Of a stretch of DNA of 23,692 nucleotides, positions 4,420 to 20,526 are shown piece by piece; the stretch's first letter is position 1; each line of letters starts with the position of its first letter. A program made the position numbers and the translations under genes. The notes beneath the pieces are model-generated. The model was not told where the DNA came from, searched no databases, and was given only the letters and a program-made list of their open reading frames with translations. The DNA lies in IMG/VR virus record IMGVR_UViG_3300032223_001045, positions 1-23,692 of that record. One strand, given 5' to 3'. The DNA comes from a virus.

Positions 4420-4577
4420 TGAAACCTAATTCAAATTTTAAAATGACAAAACCATTGAAGGTCATGTTGGCCAATATGGAACGTGAACGTAAAAAAGATT
4501 TTAGTGATGCGATGATATCAGCAATTATTGCACCGAAGATCGAGTTTAAGAAGAAAAAGGAGCAACCAAGTGAATGA
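4419..4577 (+). CDS. Small basic protein of unknown function (52 aa)
   Basis: An open frame beginning MKPNSNFKMTKPLKVMLANM and ending KKKKEQPSE. The ATG overlaps the 2OG oxygenase stop by one base (TAATG), and the TGA overlaps the GTG start of the next gene by eight bases, so it fills exactly the space between two real genes. A second ATG at 4443 could be the real start (44 aa). The middle ERERKKDFSDAMISAIIAPKIEF looks like an amphipathic helix and the tail is lysine-rich. There is no known domain. Coding status is inferred from the fit with neighbours. Confidence 0.62.
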   Translation: MKPNSNFKMTKPLKVMLANMERERKKDFSDAMISAIIAPKIEFKKKKEQPSE

Positions 4578-5388
4578 TATATTGATGTTAAGTCACTTTC
4601 ATAAGGACTTTCCATTCAATCATAATTCATCGTGGATGAGAGCAGCATATGCTGGAGGTACAGGCGCATATGAATACTATCCACCAAGCAAAGAAGGTGT
4701 TTGGATTAATACCTCACGCGAACCGAATCGAATTCAAGAATATCATCACCATTATCGTGGCGTATCTGAACTTGATTTTCTAAAAGCTATGGGTCAACAA
4801 GCATCCGAGTATTGGTTGTGGAAGTATGGTAAAGCAGACTACATTGGTTGCACAACTTATCGTCGGTATCTATTGCTTGATGACATTACACAGCCAGCAC
4901 CGAAAATTGGCATGGCAGCAAATCAAATAACTGCTGACTATCTATCATCAGACCGAATGGCAAATGCAGCACTATACATGCTTCAAAATCATGATGTAAT
5001 TACCAACATTCAAACTGAATTACCATGCTCAATCAAAGAACAATACTTACAATCACAACCTCCAGAGTATTGGGAACTATTTGAAAAAGCAATTACTGAC
5101 TTGATGCCTGACTATCGTGATAAACTAGATTGGTTTAACGGTAACAAAATCAGTTTTGAAACGTGCTACATCATGCGTAAGCAATTATTCAAAAAGTATG
5201 TCAGTGAGTTGTTTGAAATCTATGAGTATATCTGGACATATGCCAAGACAGCGTACCCAACACAACAGACCACACCAGAACCACTGCCTTGGCGGTATCC
5301 TGGCTTCTTGGGTGAAAGATTCTTGCCATTCTTCATTGCGATGAATGCCAAGGCTCCAATCCATGTGCCATTAGTGATTTTGGAATAA
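4570..5388 (+). CDS. DUF4422-type protein, probable glycosyltransferase
   Basis: 272 aa from a GTG start. AAGGAG (4557-4562) sits 7 bp before this GTG, much better than any other start; an upstream TTG at 4528 is rejected. The signature DYIGCTTYRRYL (compare YIGxxHYRRYF) and the N-terminal YEYYPPSKEGVWINTSRE region match DUF4422, a domain of capsule and glycan loci thought to be a glycosyltransferase. MRKQLFKKYVSELFEIYEYI and the GFLGERFLPFF segment near the C-terminus are also typical of that family. No membrane segment is seen. It lies away from the main sugar cassette (14083-20526) but could act in the same pathway. Donor and acceptor are unknown. Confidence 0.8.
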   Translation: MNDILMLSHFHKDFPFNHNSSWMRAAYAGGTGAYEYYPPSKEGVWINTSREPNRIQEYHHHYRGVSELDFLKAMGQQASEYWLWKYGKADYIGCTTYRRYLLLDDITQPAPKIGMAANQITADYLSSDRMANAALYMLQNHDVITNIQTELPCSIKEQYLQSQPPEYWELFEKAITDLMPDYRDKLDWFNGNKISFETCYIMRKQLFKKYVSELFEIYEYIWTYAKTAYPTQQTTPEPLPWRYPGFLGERFLPFFIAMNAKAPIHVPLVILE

Positions 5389-14082: not shown

Positions 14083-14925
14083 ATGAAAGATTTGATAGTG
14101 GGTTGTGCGACCAACTACGATTGGTCGAAATTAAAGTATTGGGTTAATTCTATCAATGATTCAGGCTTTACTGGTGATAAATGCCTGATTCTCATGAACT
14201 GCGATAAAGAAACTGTCGAAAAAATTTCGAACTCAGGTTTTTCTATCGTAGCATTCAATCAAGATGAACAAGGTAATCTTTCGTATAATTCCAATATGAT
14301 GGTACATGTTGAAAGATTCTTTCATCTATATCATATTCTTAAAGCAAATGATTATCGATTTGTAATTACCACTGACGTTAAAGATGTTATCTTTCAAAAG
14401 AATCCATCTGAGTGGATAGAAAAGAATTTACCAGAAAATGAAGATTTGATATTTTCTTCTGAAAGTATGAAATATAAAGATGAGCCATGGGGTAATCAAA
14501 ATCTCATGGAAACATTTGGTACACAAGTATACGACGAATTTAAAAATAATACCATATTCAATGTGGGCGTTCTTGCTGGTCGTGGACATGCTATGAAAGA
14601 TTTGTGTATGAATATTTTTACCTCATGCATACATCGTCCAATTAAAATCTGTGATCAATCAACATTTAATTTCCTAATTGCACAACATCCATATTTAAAA
14701 ACTTCCTTGTATACAAAATCGGAAGATGGATGGGCATGTCAGTTAGGTACAACTGCTGATCCAAGTAAAATAGAACAATTCCGTCCATTCTTGCTCGAAC
14801 CAACACCAAAAATGGAAGATGATAAAGTTGTAACATCCAGAGGAATAGAGTATACTATCGTTCATCAGTATGATCGAGTACCAGAATGGAAAAAAATAAT
14901 TGAGGCGAAATATGATGACAAATAA
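14083..14925 (+). CDS. Putative GT-A type glycosyltransferase
   Basis: 280 aa. The start (KDLIVGCATNYDWSKLKYWVNSI) forms a first beta strand and helix as in nucleotide-sugar transferases. RFVITTDVKDVIFQKNPSEW carries a D-x-x-D-type acidic motif where the metal-sugar nucleotide would bind, and FNVGVLAGRG and CDQSTFNFLIAQHP are typical of glycosyltransferase families that use NDP-sugars. A ribosome site (TTGGAG) is 5 bp upstream. It opens a run of eight overlapping sugar genes that ends at 20526. The donor may be a product of the cyclase/kinase/nucleotidyltransferase genes downstream; the acceptor is unknown. Confidence 0.8.
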   Translation: MKDLIVGCATNYDWSKLKYWVNSINDSGFTGDKCLILMNCDKETVEKISNSGFSIVAFNQDEQGNLSYNSNMMVHVERFFHLYHILKANDYRFVITTDVKDVIFQKNPSEWIEKNLPENEDLIFSSESMKYKDEPWGNQNLMETFGTQVYDEFKNNTIFNVGVLAGRGHAMKDLCMNIFTSCIHRPIKICDQSTFNFLIAQHPYLKTSLYTKSEDGWACQLGTTADPSKIEQFRPFLLEPTPKMEDDKVVTSRGIEYTIVHQYDRVPEWKKIIEAKYDDK

Positions 14926-15592
14926 TCTAAAAGAAATCTTCTGGAATCTGGACAAAGGTTGCACTAAATGGTCTGGATACTTTGATGTGTATGAGCGACA
15001 TCTAGGCAAGTTTGTTGGTAAGAAACCACGCATACTTGAGATTGGTGTTCTCGGTGGTGGTTCGATTGAGATGTGGTTGAAATACTTTGGTGAAGGCACA
15101 GAAGTTATCGGTGTCGATATCAATGAAGAATGTAAAAATTATATGTATGATGGTAAAGTAGAAATTGTCATGGGTGACCAAGGTAATCCACAATTTTGGG
15201 ATCAATATCTAGCAGGTAAAAAAGGTTTTGATATTGTGATTGATGATGGTTCACATGTAATGAATCATCAGATTACTACACTCAATGCACTATTTCCGAG
15301 ATTGAATGTAGGTGGTGTCTATATTTGCGAAGATACTCATACAAGTTATTGGCCACAACCTTGGGGTGGTTCTTTCCGTGGTGCTGGTACATTCTTAGAA
15401 CATTCTAAACGTACTACAGATGTTTTGAATCAACAGCATTTTCAAGGCACACCAATTATGGCAGAAGTTCTATCAAATTATCATTGTCTTTATTCTGTAG
15501 CATTCTATAACAGTATGGTTGTATTTGAGAGAGAAGCATTAAAAACATTTGGTATTGTGGACAACAAAGCAAACGTGGGGCGTGATCTATGA
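14912..15592 (+). CDS. Class I SAM-dependent methyltransferase (sugar/macrocin O-methyltransferase-like)
   Basis: 226 aa from ATG 14912 with GAGG about 6 bp upstream; a TTG at 14900 would add four residues. The SAM-binding motif I is ILEIGVLGGGSIEMWLKYFG, followed by VIGVDI (motif II with its acidic residue), a GDQGNPQFW segment and IVIDDGSHVMNHQ. The DDGSH region and LNVGGVYICED match methyltransferases such as TylF/macrocin O-methyltransferase, which modify sugars. It overlaps the glycosyltransferase before it by 14 bp. Likely it O-methylates a sugar of the phage-made glycan, but this is inferred from context. Confidence 0.87.
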   Translation: MMTNNLKEIFWNLDKGCTKWSGYFDVYERHLGKFVGKKPRILEIGVLGGGSIEMWLKYFGEGTEVIGVDINEECKNYMYDGKVEIVMGDQGNPQFWDQYLAGKKGFDIVIDDGSHVMNHQITTLNALFPRLNVGGVYICEDTHTSYWPQPWGGSFRGAGTFLEHSKRTTDVLNQQHFQGTPIMAEVLSNYHCLYSVAFYNSMVVFEREALKTFGIVDNKANVGRDL

Positions 15593-16305
15593 AGATAGCA
15601 TTATGCTTGTCTGGTCAAGCACGAAGCGTGAAAGCTGGCTATGAATTTCACAAGAAGAACATTCTTGATGGTAATGATGTAACTGTATTCTTTCACACGT
15701 GGACTCAAGAAAACATGGAGTTCTATCAGGAAATTATAGATTTGTATAAGCCTGAACTTGCTATTGCAGAAGACCCACTCGAAGAAGATTTGTCAAGATA
15801 TACTAGAACACCACCACCATCACCGAATTGGAAAGTGAAAGATGGTCGTATGTCAACGTTTGCACAGTTGTATGCTATTCAAGGATGCAATCAGATAAAG
15901 GTTCAGTATGAATTGGAAAACAACATAGAATTTGATTGGGTTGTTCGTTCACGATTTGATTTTGCCATCAATGCAAAAATACCATTTGATGAATTAGACA
16001 ACAGCAAACTCTATATTCCAAATTGCCGCATGGTGCCGACAAGAGATTTTGGTAACGATCAGTTTGCTTTCTCTTCATCCAAAAACATGGATAACTATGC
16101 AGAGTGTTTCAATCACATTGATGAGTTTTATAATGCTGGTGTGCAATACATGTGTGAAGATTTCATGAGTGCCAACTGGAAAAAATATAATCTGATTGGT
16201 GAGAATTTGGTGTATTGTGATGTCAACCATCCATTCCCACCAGGTGAGTACAACGGAACACCACATTCTTTAATTAGGGAAGATTTTGAACAATGGCTGA
16301 AGTAA
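15589..16305 (+). CDS. Putative glycosyltransferase-like protein (LSGQARS family)
   Basis: 238 aa. It begins KIALCLSGQARSVKAGYEF, a start typical of a family found in cyanophages and capsule loci and regarded as glycosyltransferase-like. FFHTWTQENMEFY and FDWVVRSRFDFAIN are further family features; RSRFD may be the acidic metal site. The end contains LIGENLVYCDVNHPFPPG. The ATG overlaps the methyltransferase stop (ATGA), and the end overlaps the nucleotidyltransferase by 13 bp. No biochemical activity is established for the family as far as I know. Confidence 0.75.
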   Translation: MKIALCLSGQARSVKAGYEFHKKNILDGNDVTVFFHTWTQENMEFYQEIIDLYKPELAIAEDPLEEDLSRYTRTPPPSPNWKVKDGRMSTFAQLYAIQGCNQIKVQYELENNIEFDWVVRSRFDFAINAKIPFDELDNSKLYIPNCRMVPTRDFGNDQFAFSSSKNMDNYAECFNHIDEFYNAGVQYMCEDFMSANWKKYNLIGENLVYCDVNHPFPPGEYNGTPHSLIREDFEQWLK

Positions 16306-17024
16306 ATCTAATTATCTGCATGGCGGGTTATAACACCCGCTTTCATGATGTTGGTTTTGACATCCCAAAGTATCTGTTGCCTTGGAATAATTCAACTATT
16401 ATCCATGACATTCTAAAAAACTTTGGTGAAGTGCAGCAGACTGTTCTAGTTGCAAACAAACGTGATATTTATTTCAAAGATCAATTGCTAGAAACAATTA
16501 AACCACTTGGAATGAATGAACATGATATATTATATATCGGCGACACTAAAGGTCAAGCACACACAGCAGCAGTTGGTATCGGTCAATTATATAATCCAGA
16601 AATGCCAACATTCATTCATAATGCAGACACCATCGTTAAAGGACGCACTTTAGAAACGATTGGCAACTCTTTGAATGATGAATACGATGCTTACATTGAT
16701 GTGTTCGTTGGCAACTCACCAAAGTATTCATATGTCCGTGCATTTGAAGAAACTGTATTGGAAATTGTTGAGAAGAAACAAATCTCTCCTTATGCATCAT
16801 CCGGACTCTACGGATTTCTGACAGCAAGTATGTATATGAGTTATTACGATTCTCTGATACAAAAAAATGATGAGTTGTATGTAGCAGATGTAATTCAAAG
16901 TATGATTGCTGTGGATAGAAAAGTATTCATGAATGGTCTTAGTAACAGTCAAGAAACGATTGTGCTAGGCAGTCCACAAGAATATGGTATCGAGATAGCA
17001 CGACAAACTTTAGGTGCAAAATGA
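16293..17024 (+). CDS. Sugar-phosphate nucleotidyltransferase
   Basis: 243 aa. The signature MAGYNTRF...PKYLLPW gives R16 and K26, the residues that bind NTP phosphates. GDTKGQAHTA binds the base, and FIHNADTIV (D112) is the metal-binding N-A-D motif. The fold is that of enzymes joining a sugar-1-phosphate to an NTP to make an NDP-sugar, as in capsule and aminoglycoside pathways. It is the first of four coupled genes (nucleotidyltransferase, kinase, cyclase, dehydrogenase). With the cyclase, the natural reading is activation of a cyclitol phosphate, but an ordinary hexose phosphate cannot be excluded. The ribosome site is GGGAAGA. Confidence 0.88.
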   Translation: MAEVNLIICMAGYNTRFHDVGFDIPKYLLPWNNSTIIHDILKNFGEVQQTVLVANKRDIYFKDQLLETIKPLGMNEHDILYIGDTKGQAHTAAVGIGQLYNPEMPTFIHNADTIVKGRTLETIGNSLNDEYDAYIDVFVGNSPKYSYVRAFEETVLEIVEKKQISPYASSGLYGFLTASMYMSYYDSLIQKNDELYVADVIQSMIAVDRKVFMNGLSNSQETIVLGSPQEYGIEIARQTLGAK

Positions 17025-17983
17025 TAGTCAAAAAACTGAAAGGTGGTTCTCTCAGTTCCACTTATTATCTCAACGCAAAAAATCATGAATATATCAGTAA
17101 AGAGATTCTTCGTGATGAGAATCGTGAGTATGGTTTTGTTCGTTGGTATTCACAACTAAAGAAACTACAGCGATACAATACACTGTATCCCAATCTATTC
17201 CCACAAGTTATTGATGTTGGGGTTGATCATAATAAAGCATACTTCAAGATAGAATACATGAAGGGTTTTCGTGACATCAAAACCATTCTATCTAATGATA
17301 CGCTGACAGATGAGCAAATCTTCCATATGAGTCAGGCAGTGTGGAAAGGATTAAATCAACTTCATTCAGTTACACACGATCCAATATCAGGTGCGGGTAA
17401 ATTATATTTTGAGGAAGAAGTTCAGCAAAAGATAATTGATGCACTTGCCGAACCAAAGTTTGCTGAATTCTATGCTCATGGAACATATGAATACAATGGT
17501 AGAATTGTTCAAGGTATTGGTGCATCAATAATTGATTTAGAGAATTTCTTCTCAGAATTAACTTTGATACAAGAAGAAAATATTCATGGTAATCCTACAC
17601 TAGAAAACATTTTGTATTCGTTTGATGAGGATCGTGTAGTGTTTATTGATGTGTATGATGAAAGCATGATTGATACCAGATTTTTGGATTATGCACAAGT
17701 TCTACAATGTTCACGCAGTCACTATGGTTATATAAATGACAATCAGGTAGATATAGGTGGTGTTTCTGTAACTCATAGGTTGCAGATACCACAGAATTTT
17801 GAAACCTTTAACTATCATTTTGAGTCTGGAATTACCGAACCAAGAACGAAAGAGATTGTGGACATTTTTGAGGCAACGCAGTTCATTCGGATGCTGCCAT
17901 TCAAGGTGCTGGCAGGTGACATAGATAAGGCAAAGTTCTTTTATGTTCATGCGTGTTATTTGTTGAGTAAGGTGTTTAGATGA
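17021..17983 (+). CDS. Aminoglycoside phosphotransferase/choline kinase-like protein
   Basis: 320 aa. A glycine-serine loop (KGGSLSSTYYL) and a lysine at about 27 fit the N-lobe of the APH fold. The catalytic loop reads H189-G190-N191-P-T-L-E-N196-I-L, and the metal-binding Asp is D210 in VVFIDVYDES; DTRFLDYAQ follows, as in APH-like kinases. The unusual point is N191, where most active family members have the catalytic Asp (HGD). It may be a divergent kinase, use another base, or be inactive. Position between nucleotidyltransferase and cyclase genes, with ATGA overlaps on both sides, suggests phosphorylation of a cyclitol or sugar at the anomeric-like hydroxyl. Confidence 0.78.
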   Translation: MIVKKLKGGSLSSTYYLNAKNHEYISKEILRDENREYGFVRWYSQLKKLQRYNTLYPNLFPQVIDVGVDHNKAYFKIEYMKGFRDIKTILSNDTLTDEQIFHMSQAVWKGLNQLHSVTHDPISGAGKLYFEEEVQQKIIDALAEPKFAEFYAHGTYEYNGRIVQGIGASIIDLENFFSELTLIQEENIHGNPTLENILYSFDEDRVVFIDVYDESMIDTRFLDYAQVLQCSRSHYGYINDNQVDIGGVSVTHRLQIPQNFETFNYHFESGITEPRTKEIVDIFEATQFIRMLPFKVLAGDIDKAKFFYVHACYLLSKVFR

Positions 17984-19164
17984 ATGATTTTATGATGGAT
18001 TACGACAAGTTCAAACGAACTTGGACAGTCAAAACAGAATTACCAGTAGAGTTTAAACTAATGTACTCTGCTGATATTTTCAATCCTGCAAACCATGATT
18101 TGATATCATACAAGACCAACGATAGAGTGGTGATTGTTATTGATCAGAATGTTCATAAGTTTTACACTGTAGAATTAATGAATTATTTTAATTCCCACAA
18201 TGTGAAATACTGTATGTTGGTTATCGATACCAATGAAGAGAGTAAAACATGGGAAGATGTAGATTATATTTTACAATTTTTTGAAGATGAGGGAGTGCTA
18301 CGCCGTGAACCGATTATCGCCATTGGTGGTGGTGTCCTGCTTGACATTGTTGGCTTTGCTTGCAGTATATATCGTCGTGGAATCCCATACATCAAAGTCC
18401 CAACTACTCTACTGGCCATTGTTGATGCTTCCGTAGGTTCAAAAGTAGCAGTCAATCACTTTGAAAGACGCAATCGACTTGGTGCATACTATCCACCAAT
18501 CGCTACATTGATTGACAAGAAATTTATCAAGACACAGAGTAAACGTGAGATTGTTAATGGTATTGCTGAGATATTCAAGTTAGCGATTATTAAATCACCA
18601 GAACTGTTTGCTCTGCTCGAAGAGAATGCTGAACTATTGATTGAAGAAAAGTTTCAACATGGTGCTGTTCCTGTTCGTGTCATTAATCTTGCTATCACAG
18701 ACATGATTGCTGAACTTGGTCCGAATCTATGGGAAAGAAAATTAGATCGTTGTGTAGACTTTGGTCACACATTTAGTCCTGTAATTGAGATGAAGAATGT
18801 GGCAGATTCATTTGACCCTGACAATCCACCATACTTTAAAAAAGATAATATGTTACTGCATGGTGAAGCAGTAGCACTTGATTGTCTGTATAGTTCATGT
18901 ATTGCATGTCTACGTGGTTATATTGATACATTAACGCTTTCTAGAATATTTGATTTAGCGACAAGATTAAAATTAAAAACATACCATGAAGATTTCACGA
19001 AGATAGAATTGCTTCAACAAAGTTTGACAGATGCAACCAAACACCGTAATGGTAATCAGTTTGCACCGTTGCCAATAAGTATAGGTAATTATAGAATCGT
19101 GAATGATATCACGAAAACGGAAATGGAATATGCTATTTCATTGTTTAGGACTTATCATGCGTAA
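17980..19164 (+). CDS. Sugar phosphate cyclase, 2-epi-5-epi-valiolone synthase-like (dehydroquinate synthase fold)
   Basis: 394 aa. NAD-binding GGGVLLDIVGFA is at 116-127 and KVPTTLLAIVDASVGSK follows. Zinc ligands are E197 (GIAEIFK), H263 and H294 (LLHGEAVALD). Two features point away from dehydroquinate synthase and toward the valiolone-synthase class: NRLGAYYPP at 165-173, and GHTFSPVIE at 262-270, where dehydroquinate synthases have GHTFGHAIE with a second catalytic His. Enzymes of that class turn sedoheptulose 7-phosphate into a C7 cyclitol using bound NAD. Exact product (2-epi-5-epi-valiolone, 2-epi-valiolone or desmethyl-4-deoxygadusol) cannot be read from sequence alone. It overlaps the kinase gene (ATGA) and the dehydrogenase gene (8 bp). 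Confidence 0.9.
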   Translation: MNDFMMDYDKFKRTWTVKTELPVEFKLMYSADIFNPANHDLISYKTNDRVVIVIDQNVHKFYTVELMNYFNSHNVKYCMLVIDTNEESKTWEDVDYILQFFEDEGVLRREPIIAIGGGVLLDIVGFACSIYRRGIPYIKVPTTLLAIVDASVGSKVAVNHFERRNRLGAYYPPIATLIDKKFIKTQSKREIVNGIAEIFKLAIIKSPELFALLEENAELLIEEKFQHGAVPVRVINLAITDMIAELGPNLWERKLDRCVDFGHTFSPVIEMKNVADSFDPDNPPYFKKDNMLLHGEAVALDCLYSSCIACLRGYIDTLTLSRIFDLATRLKLKTYHEDFTKIELLQQSLTDATKHRNGNQFAPLPISIGNYRIVNDITKTEMEYAISLFRTYHA

Positions 19165-19831
19165 AAATGCTGTGGTGACAGGTTGCAGTTATGGTTTAGG
19201 TGAAAAGATATGTCGTAAATTAATGGAAGATGGTTATCATGTCTATGGTTTATCACGCAGTCGTCCACCAGAAAGTTTCATGAGATTTCCATCTGATTTT
19301 ACATGGATTGAATGTGATATATCAAAAGCAGATGAAGTTCAATTAGCATTCAAACGAATAGATCAATACACTGATATTCTAGTCAATAATGCTGGTGTAT
19401 TTACTGGTGGAAAGTTTGCAGCACAAAATCATGAAACGATTGATAAGGTAATTGATGTCAATGTGAAGGGTGCGATGTATGTAACCAATGAAGCATTGAA
19501 GTGGATGCCATCAGGGTCACGTATATTTTTTATCAATTCTGTTTCTGGATTGTATGAGATAGAATATGAAGCAATCTATGGGGCATCCAAACATGCACTC
19601 ACTGCATTTGCAGGTGTGTTGGGTAAAGAGTTGCAGAGTCGTGGCATTTCTGTTACAAGCATTCATCCTGGAAGTATTCAGACACCAATGCAGCGAACCA
19701 ATCCAAACAATGCACCAGGTAAGTTTTTGAAACCAGAAGAAATTGCTAATCTGATTTCATTTATTTGCAAAACTGAAAAAGTAGAATATAAAACAATCAA
19801 ACTATTTCCGAATACCGAATGGCACCAGTGA
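19157..19831 (+). CDS. Short-chain dehydrogenase/reductase (SDR)
   Basis: 224 aa from ATG 19157; a longer frame from 19103 is rejected because the Rossmann strand starts right at this Met (MRKNAVVTGCSYGLG). The cofactor loop is TGCSYGLG (8-15), NNAG is at 77-80, and the catalytic residues are S128 (INSVSG), Y141 and K145 (YGASK). The S33-R34-S-R36 stretch after the second strand suggests NADP(H). SDRs interconvert alcohols and ketones. Beside a cyclase that makes a keto-cyclitol, reduction of that ketone is the simplest role, inferred from context. The ATG overlaps the cyclase stop by eight bases and the end overlaps the next gene by 13. Confidence 0.93.
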   Translation: MRKNAVVTGCSYGLGEKICRKLMEDGYHVYGLSRSRPPESFMRFPSDFTWIECDISKADEVQLAFKRIDQYTDILVNNAGVFTGGKFAAQNHETIDKVIDVNVKGAMYVTNEALKWMPSGSRIFFINSVSGLYEIEYEAIYGASKHALTAFAGVLGKELQSRGISVTSIHPGSIQTPMQRTNPNNAPGKFLKPEEIANLISFICKTEKVEYKTIKLFPNTEWHQ

Positions 19832-20526
19832 AAGATAAAACATTATTCATAGTAACATCTGCTTTGAATCCTGAGATGGGTATCATAAATCGAGAAGATC
19901 GATTCAACCAAACCATGGACGGATTAAAATCACTTCGTGAGAAAATGCCTGATGCCATAGTATTGATGGTGGATGGATCACCCAACAAGATTGAAGAAGA
20001 GAAAGTCAAAGCACTTCAAGAATATGTAAATTTTTTTGCAGATTTTTCACACGACAAAGAAATACTTCAGTTTTCCACCACAGGCAGAAAGAGTGAAGCC
20101 GAGAATGTTCTACTCTTTAAGACTATGTTGCTGTTAAAACAAGATGAAGTAATTGATGAAATCATGCAGTCGGTTAACAGGATTGTAAAATTATCTGGTC
20201 GTACTATTCTGACTGATGGATTCGATATTGCTGAACATAATCATTCCGGTAAATATGTGTTCAAAACACGTATGCCAACATGGATAGCAGATTCGCGTAA
20301 AGAGTTTGCCACAGACCTGCTGATTACTCGTATGTATTCCCTCTGTCCAACCCTGATAGAGGACTACATGAATCTGTGTGCTATCAATATTAACTTAATC
20401 AACCAGACCCATATTGACACAGAACATGCCCATTTTGTCAATATAAATAAGGACTTACTGGTGGAACTGGACACGATCCATTGCCAAGGCATAATGGCAG
20501 GTACTGGTTTGACCGAAATTTATTAA
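19819..20526 (+). CDS. Putative glycosyltransferase-like protein of unknown family
   Basis: 235 aa. The start LFIVTSALNPEMG, the QTMDGLKSLREKMPDAIVLMVDG segment and the later RIVKLSGRTILTDGFDI resemble a class of virus and phage proteins that look like sugar-nucleotide transferases (GT-A-like: strand, helix, strand with acidic residue). I recognise no certain catalytic motif. It is the last gene of the eight-gene sugar run, overlapping the dehydrogenase gene by 13 bp. The 3' quarter (about 20290-20480) uses more CTG, ACC and GCC codons than the 5' part. A glycosyl transfer role is likely from context, not proven. Confidence 0.68.
   Translation: MAPVKDKTLFIVTSALNPEMGIINREDRFNQTMDGLKSLREKMPDAIVLMVDGSPNKIEEEKVKALQEYVNFFADFSHDKEILQFSTTGRKSEAENVLLFKTMLLLKQDEVIDEIMQSVNRIVKLSGRTILTDGFDIAEHNHSGKYVFKTRMPTWIADSRKEFATDLLITRMYSLCPTLIEDYMNLCAININLINQTHIDTEHAHFVNINKDLLVELDTIHCQGIMAGTGLTEIY

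Follow-up and report, generated by a model that had tools for sequence, protein, structure and literature searches.

A candidate four-gene phage module for a nucleotide-activated C7-cyclitol inside a glycosylation locus

The stretch of viral DNA analysed here (IMG/VR record IMGVR_UViG_3300032223_001045, positions 1 to 23,692; 23,692 nucleotides, hereafter the window) is a fragment of phage DNA that carries, at 16293-19831, four plus-strand open reading frames for a nucleotidyltransferase, a predicted kinase of the aminoglycoside phosphotransferase (APH) fold, a sugar phosphate cyclase and a short-chain dehydrogenase/reductase (SDR). In keeping with the translational coupling that a first-pass annotation of the sequence had claimed, each of these genes overlaps its successor: the nucleotidyltransferase/APH and APH/cyclase junctions are ATGA overlaps, the cyclase and SDR genes share 8 nt, and the block overlaps by 13 nt both the gene upstream of it and the gene that follows. 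The SDR probably starts at 19157 rather than at 19103, because its homologues are 222-226 aa long. All four genes are under purifying selection, with dN/dS values of 0.08-0.15 between the window and its close relatives, in a set that leaves out the SDR of relative L008 (a mis-extracted sequence; relative contigs are labelled L001, L002 and so on). We consider it probable that the four genes are an interchangeable unit within a phage glycosylation locus and that they produce a carbocyclic pseudosugar, namely a C7-cyclitol activated by a nucleotide.

The cyclase matches the Pfam families DHQ_synthase (122.5 bits) and DHQS_C (56.8 bits). Among solved structures it scores highest with ValA, a 2-epi-5-epi-valiolone synthase (EEVS), at 269 bits, ahead of the desmethyl-4-deoxygadusol synthase (DDGS) of Anabaena at 207 and of true dehydroquinate synthase (DHQS) at 140. 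The motifs NRLGAYYPP and GHTFSPVIE are present as first quoted, and all three zinc ligands are in place (E197, H263 and H294). In the active-site columns, D260, P267, F265, W251 and H355 are the residues of ValA, whereas DHQS has N (N268) at position 260 and H (H275) at position 267, and two DDGS references have A, W, H and T at positions 260, 265, 251 and 355, respectively. The residue check covers a subset of active-site positions, not the full published 14-site fingerprint cited in PMC4426668; the classes compared are EEVS (ValA), DDGS and DHQS. A DDGS of the mycosporine-like amino acid (MAA) sunscreen type was considered and rejected, given the differing residues at 260, 265, 251 and 355 and an MAA gene context around the Nostoc DDGS that is without counterpart here.

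In a maximum-likelihood tree of 69 sequences, DHQS was separated with 100/96 support. The phage cyclases fall among the sedoheptulose-7-phosphate cyclases, the placement expected by the first-pass annotation, in a separate clade beside the branch that holds both ValA and DDGS. With ValA as its best relative, a position away from DHQS and ValA-like residues at all checked sites except R164, the cyclase can be called a non-DHQS sugar phosphate cyclase, as had been proposed; "EEVS type" is our best call, with a predicted product. The tree also hints at two independent phage captures, L199 and L200 lying with archaeal and fibrobacterial sequences, although a single phage cyclase clade was not rejected (approximately unbiased test, p 0.16). 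A strict clade of APH-linked cyclases is compatible with the data, not proven (p 0.416 for holding the clade together). Between GHTFSPVIEM and LLHGEAV, before the last zinc ligand, the cyclase has a 15-residue insert (window positions approximately 18799-18852) that is common only to the window and L001-L003 and absent from the other relatives compared.

The kinase reaches 20.2 bits with Pfam APH (PF01636), under the cut-off of 23.2. An AlphaFold2 model built from 37 relatives (pLDDT 94.5) has APH(4)-Ia as its top match, with Z 19.3 and rmsd 3.1 over 264 residues to 3w0n, and scores a Z of approximately 19 also with a choline-kinase family protein and with 5-methylthioribose kinase. Judged by this model, the protein belongs to the APH/choline-kinase fold. 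K27, N196 and D210, at the lysine and metal-site positions that have ATP and metal roles in the fold, are invariant throughout the family. The coordinates of the four genes and of their neighbours are collected in Table 1.

Table 1. Genes of the cyclitol block and its flanks (window coordinates), and the block that replaces it in sister phages (contig coordinates)
Feature	Position	Strand	Evidence
Sugar-1-phosphate-type nucleotidyltransferase	16293..17024	+	Pfam NTP_transferase 30.3 bits (cut-off 21.2); PDB 4evw NDP-sugar pyrophosphorylase E 2e-13; synteny in phages and cells
APH-fold small-molecule kinase (predicted), HGN for HGD	17021..17983	+	AlphaFold2 model fold match; invariant K27, N196, D210; N191 at catalytic Asp position
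EEVS-type sugar phosphate cyclase (sedoheptulose-7-phosphate cyclase superfamily)	17980..19164	+	Best PDB match 4p53 ValA E 5e-79; tree; active-site columns
Short-chain dehydrogenase/reductase (SDR)	19157..19831	+	Pfam adh_short 140.7 bits, E 5e-41; TGxxxGxG and YxxxK in sequence
Glycosyltransferase-like gtA, conserved flank	14083..14925	+	PHROG 1579 glycosyltransferase E 6e-7; GT_PLOD sub-cut-off; retained on module swap
SAM-dependent methyltransferase, flank in most relatives	14900..15592	+	Methyltransf_24 29.3 bits
DUF7796 protein, probable glycosyltransferase-like, conserved flank	15589..16305	+	Pfam DUF7796 30 bits
GT-A-fold glycosyltransferase-like orf8, conserved flank, candidate transferase	19819..20526	+	AlphaFold2 model and Foldseek; retained on module swap
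Swapped kinase/nucleotidyltransferase block	L305 9726-11488; L310 17533-20296; L309 17971-19400		Same site as cyclitol block

Cyclase-seeded scans returned 80 viral contigs and a kinase-seeded scan 11 more, about 90 in all; from these we drew 180 cyclase-bearing viral loci, contigs being sampled repeatedly. An APH gene and an SDR gene stand beside the cyclase in every one of these loci with enough flank. The linkage of the four genes in related phages, on which the earlier proposal had been staked, thus extends to about 90 viral contigs, and so the block is not a chance arrangement. The main phage group largely keeps to one order, gtA-(methyltransferase)-DUF7796-nucleotidyltransferase-APH-cyclase-SDR-orf8, and in six contigs from other phage contexts (L168, L183, L184, L188, L199 and L200) the four genes stay together without most of these flanks. 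The DUF7796 protein shares 24% identity with a cyanophage region whose annotation reads capsular polysaccharide biosynthesis protein. Relatives add further NDP-sugar genes for an epimerase, a DegT aminotransferase and a UDP-galactopyranose mutase; in L034 (6495-16226) and L199 (4733-13660) the locus is extended by genes for these three together with a 2OG-Fe(II) oxygenase and an aldehyde dehydrogenase. A DUF4422 protein (75 bits) is encoded at 4528-5388 of the window, distant from the cassette, whereas L173 and L176 have a relative of it within their cassette regions.

The flanks persist where the block does not. Of the 22 contigs in which a related gp41 is followed by over 7.5 kb of downstream sequence, two have the cassette. 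L305, L306, L309, L310 and L329 retain gtA and the DUF7796 gene, and orf8 too where the contig reaches it, and L305 and L306, in which the cyclase was not found, also keep the methyltransferase gene. The swapped interval holds a shorter APH-like kinase in L305, L309, L310 and L329; in L305, L309 and L310 this kinase has HGD and is followed by a nucleotidyltransferase-like gene (HAD-fused in L305 and L310), and L310 has an epimerase as well. L306 and L329 end before the full interval. Because these sister phages hold another block between the kept flanks, the cyclitol block behaves like a replaceable source of activated (pseudo)sugar. Over window positions 17021-20526, compared with L003 and L006, synonymous divergence in the APH, cyclase and SDR genes lies far under that of gp41 and rises again in orf8; against L006 it is 0.48-0.73 in the three block genes and 1.9 in orf8, with gp41 saturated. 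This low divergence is consistent with exchange of the block between phages.

In a genome scan, the nearest cellular cyclases carry the same neighbours as the phage block. All four genes are linked in a woesearchaeote and a fibrobacterium, and APH and nucleotidyltransferase genes lie near the cyclase in a myxobacterium, two Prochlorococcus single cells and Holophagaceae. At these last four loci an aldo/keto reductase (AKR) takes the place of the SDR, a change of reductase class that would be expected of a step that reduces the cyclase ketone. Genes of surface-polysaccharide type (flippase, GT61, FkbM methyltransferase, cytidylyltransferase) neighbour several of the cellular loci; Halomonas L051 has a cyclase without the kinase. 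Cellular members of the kinase family are rare, with one strong match across 200 Prochlorococcus, 371 woesearchaeote-phylum, 168 fibrobacterium-phylum and 386 Prochlorococcus-phylum genomes. In the Prochlorococcus single cells (L053 200-13505, and L056) the cyclase, kinase, nucleotidyltransferase and AKR lie amid surface-polysaccharide-type genes, and the strong match is in one of the 200 genomes of the genus.

The carriers of the block are T4-like myoviruses, to judge from the T4-type replication genes of the window, which encodes a B-family DNA polymerase and a RecA/UvsX-like protein, and from the T4 capsid protein gp23 encoded in 8 of 18 relative contigs, six of these eight being longer than 100 kb. 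Assignment to the cyanophages was rejected: cyanophage polymerases share only some 51% identity with that of the window, and no match to the psbA family occurs in 17 relative contigs.

We infer the substrate, the order of the steps, the nucleotide, the stereochemistry of the product and the acceptor of the pathway as follows. The cyclase would close host sedoheptulose 7-phosphate to a phosphate-free ketone resembling 2-epi-5-epi-valiolone, the SDR would reduce this ketone, and the APH-fold kinase would phosphorylate the new C1 hydroxyl. The nucleotidyltransferase would then convert the cyclitol-1-phosphate to an NDP-cyclitol, from which one or more of gtA, the DUF7796 protein and orf8 may transfer the cyclitol; the likeliest acceptor is a glycan of the virion or of the host surface. 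An AlphaFold2 model of orf8 (pLDDT 93.4) finds, as best Foldseek matches, an alpha-1,3-galactosyltransferase, glycogenin and a PBCV-1 capsid glycosyltransferase, which makes it a candidate transferase of the GT-A fold; its donor is not fixed, since orf8 also accompanies the other module. The "valienol-type" unit of the first-pass annotation found no support, as nothing in the block corresponds to the ROK 7-kinase, the epimerase, the AcbL-type enzyme or the phosphatase of acarbose synthesis. Since the block holds only part of that route, a saturated C7-cyclitol would be the favoured product, not valienol. On balance, we lean towards seeing in these genes a pathway pared down to four enzymes, in which a heptulose phosphate of central metabolism becomes a saturated, NDP-activated carbasugar. 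This pathway would be common to phages and to rare cellular surface-polysaccharide loci, and phages would use it at a glycosylation locus as a swappable donor module for their own or host glycans.

Several observations weigh against the proposed pathway. The characterised EEVS and DDGS enzymes lie in the sister branch, and the clade of the phage cyclases is without a characterised member. R164, at the position of DHQS K161, is the sole departure among the checked sites, ValA, DDGS and DHQS all having Lys there, and the Arg is conserved in the APH-linked clade. In 37 of 37 aligned members of the kinase family, phage and cellular, Asn (N191) occupies the position of the catalytic Asp of the HxD motif. 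A recognisable nucleotidyltransferase adjoins the block in all viral loci with enough flank except the L259/L260 pair, and no transferase dedicated to the block is common to all contexts. In L259 (3998-8694), APH, cyclase and SDR genes occur with no recognisable nucleotidyltransferase in the stretch, and a gene resembling those of NDP-sugar epimerases/decarboxylases lies upstream.

The first two of these points, together with a residue comparison limited to EEVS, DDGS and DHQS, bear on whether the cyclase makes another product of the same enzyme class, such as a valiolone epimer or the product of another ketose phosphate, in a pathway that would still end in an activated cyclitol. The remaining checked active-site positions match ValA, and we regard such a product as possible but unlikely. 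The Asn of the kinase family is an argument for a pseudokinase or other nucleotide-handling protein, the C1 phosphate then coming from a host enzyme. It gains from the HGD that sister phages keep in their swapped-in kinases and phage G in gp311; set against it are the invariant K27, N196 and D210 and the strong linkage to the nucleotidyltransferase, and we hold it to be improbable. The first-pass call of an APH-like kinase stands as to fold class, as modelled, but kinase activity is not assured, because HGN replaces HGD family-wide, and the fold is unlike that of the ROK 7-kinases of the acarbose pathway. Either catalysis proceeds without the catalytic Asp or the kinase step differs from our proposal.

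A third view would have the cyclitol as a free small molecule (a gadusol- or MAA-like sunscreen, an osmolyte, a signal or an inhibitor) and the kinase/nucleotidyltransferase pair serving an unrelated sugar. EEVS feeds gadusol synthesis in animals (PMC4426668), DDGS feeds that of MAAs, and the cyclase has a methyltransferase gene 2.4 kb upstream of it. That gene, however, persists in the L305/L306 phages that keep no recognised cyclase; no MT-Ox was recognised, the genes adjoining the Nostoc DDGS find no counterpart beside the block, and cyclase and kinase always go together across the viral loci examined, so that we give this view little credence. Finally, a dehydroquinate synthase boosting the aromatic amino acid synthesis of the host is barely credible: automatic annotation would say AroB, but the TIGR01357 score of 199.9 bits is far under the cut-off of 305, P267 and D260 replace H275 and N268 of DHQS, the tree separates the two, and the cyclase is linked to nucleotidyltransferase and APH genes throughout.

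If the activated-cyclitol pathway is real, phages make compounds of a class hitherto met in drugs of actinomycetes (acarbose, validamycin) and in sunscreens of animals. The carbasugar would then probably be a glycan building block, and hydrolases and receptors for ordinary sugars may not handle such units. The four genes would offer a toolkit for activated carbasugars and a hint that bacteria such as Prochlorococcus have carbasugar glycans that have so far escaped notice. The purpose of phage-borne glycosylation loci would also become testable, with the module swap in sister phages as a natural comparison.

The first-pass annotation knew of no characterised phage with such a pathway, and we likewise found none in the annotated phage collection (INPHARED) or in the literature searched. 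The collection yields no phage protein that can convincingly be related to the cyclase: its matches, rejected as viral relatives, are all 23-30% identical, and the annotated ones are AroB in bacterial-type contigs. A literature search on valiolone with phage or virus gave nothing relevant and no mention of a viral cyclase.

Some T4-like phages, such as the RB69 type with arabinosylated DNA, make their own sugar donors for DNA glycosylation. They share with the block carriers phage-borne donor synthesis and glycosyltransferases; unlike in those phages, no match to the thymidylate synthase/dCMP-hydroxymethylase family was found in the gp23-positive block-carrying contigs, and DNA hypermodification of the glucosyl-hydroxymethylcytosine kind was set aside on this weak negative evidence. 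Bacillus phage G (gp306-gp313) has an APH-like protein (gp311), a HAD protein (gp310), a nucleotidyltransferase (gp309) and two adjoining annotated glucosyltransferases, but its locus is without a cyclase, and gp311, with 23% identity across 92% of the query, has the canonical HGD. Lying between the two annotated alpha-glucosyltransferases, gp311-gp309 (L206 5965-8394) may form a donor pathway; this set of genes, with no cyclase among them, parallels the swapped block.

With EEVS, the window cyclase shares the zinc ligands, the checked diagnostic residues and 42% identity over the aligned region; it differs in its separate clade, in the Arg at the DHQS K161 position and, together with L001-L003, in the 15-aa insert. 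In the acarbose route, the cyclase product is 7-phosphorylated, epimerised, converted to valienone phosphate, reduced, 1-phosphorylated by AcbU, freed of the 7-phosphate and provided with GDP by AcbR (PMC9200736). The claim that the phage block uses the same enzyme classes as acarbose (acb) and validamycin (val/vld) synthesis proved right for its core, since in both an EEVS-type cyclase, a cyclitol reductase, a 1-kinase (AcbU) and a nucleotidyltransferase (AcbR/VldB, GDP) lead, by prediction in the phage case, to an activated cyclitol for a (pseudo)glycosyltransferase (PMC9200736). The likeness does not extend to the further steps towards valienol phosphate, none of which occurs in the module or its immediate neighbours: acarbose synthesis adds these enzymes, whereas the phage block has four genes and a kinase of the APH fold, and core logic alone is shared. 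The actinomycete genes sit in a secondary-metabolite cluster and the phage genes in a glycosylation locus. The class of chemistry is thus already known from actinomycetes, and within the collections and literature searched it is the phage setting that is new.

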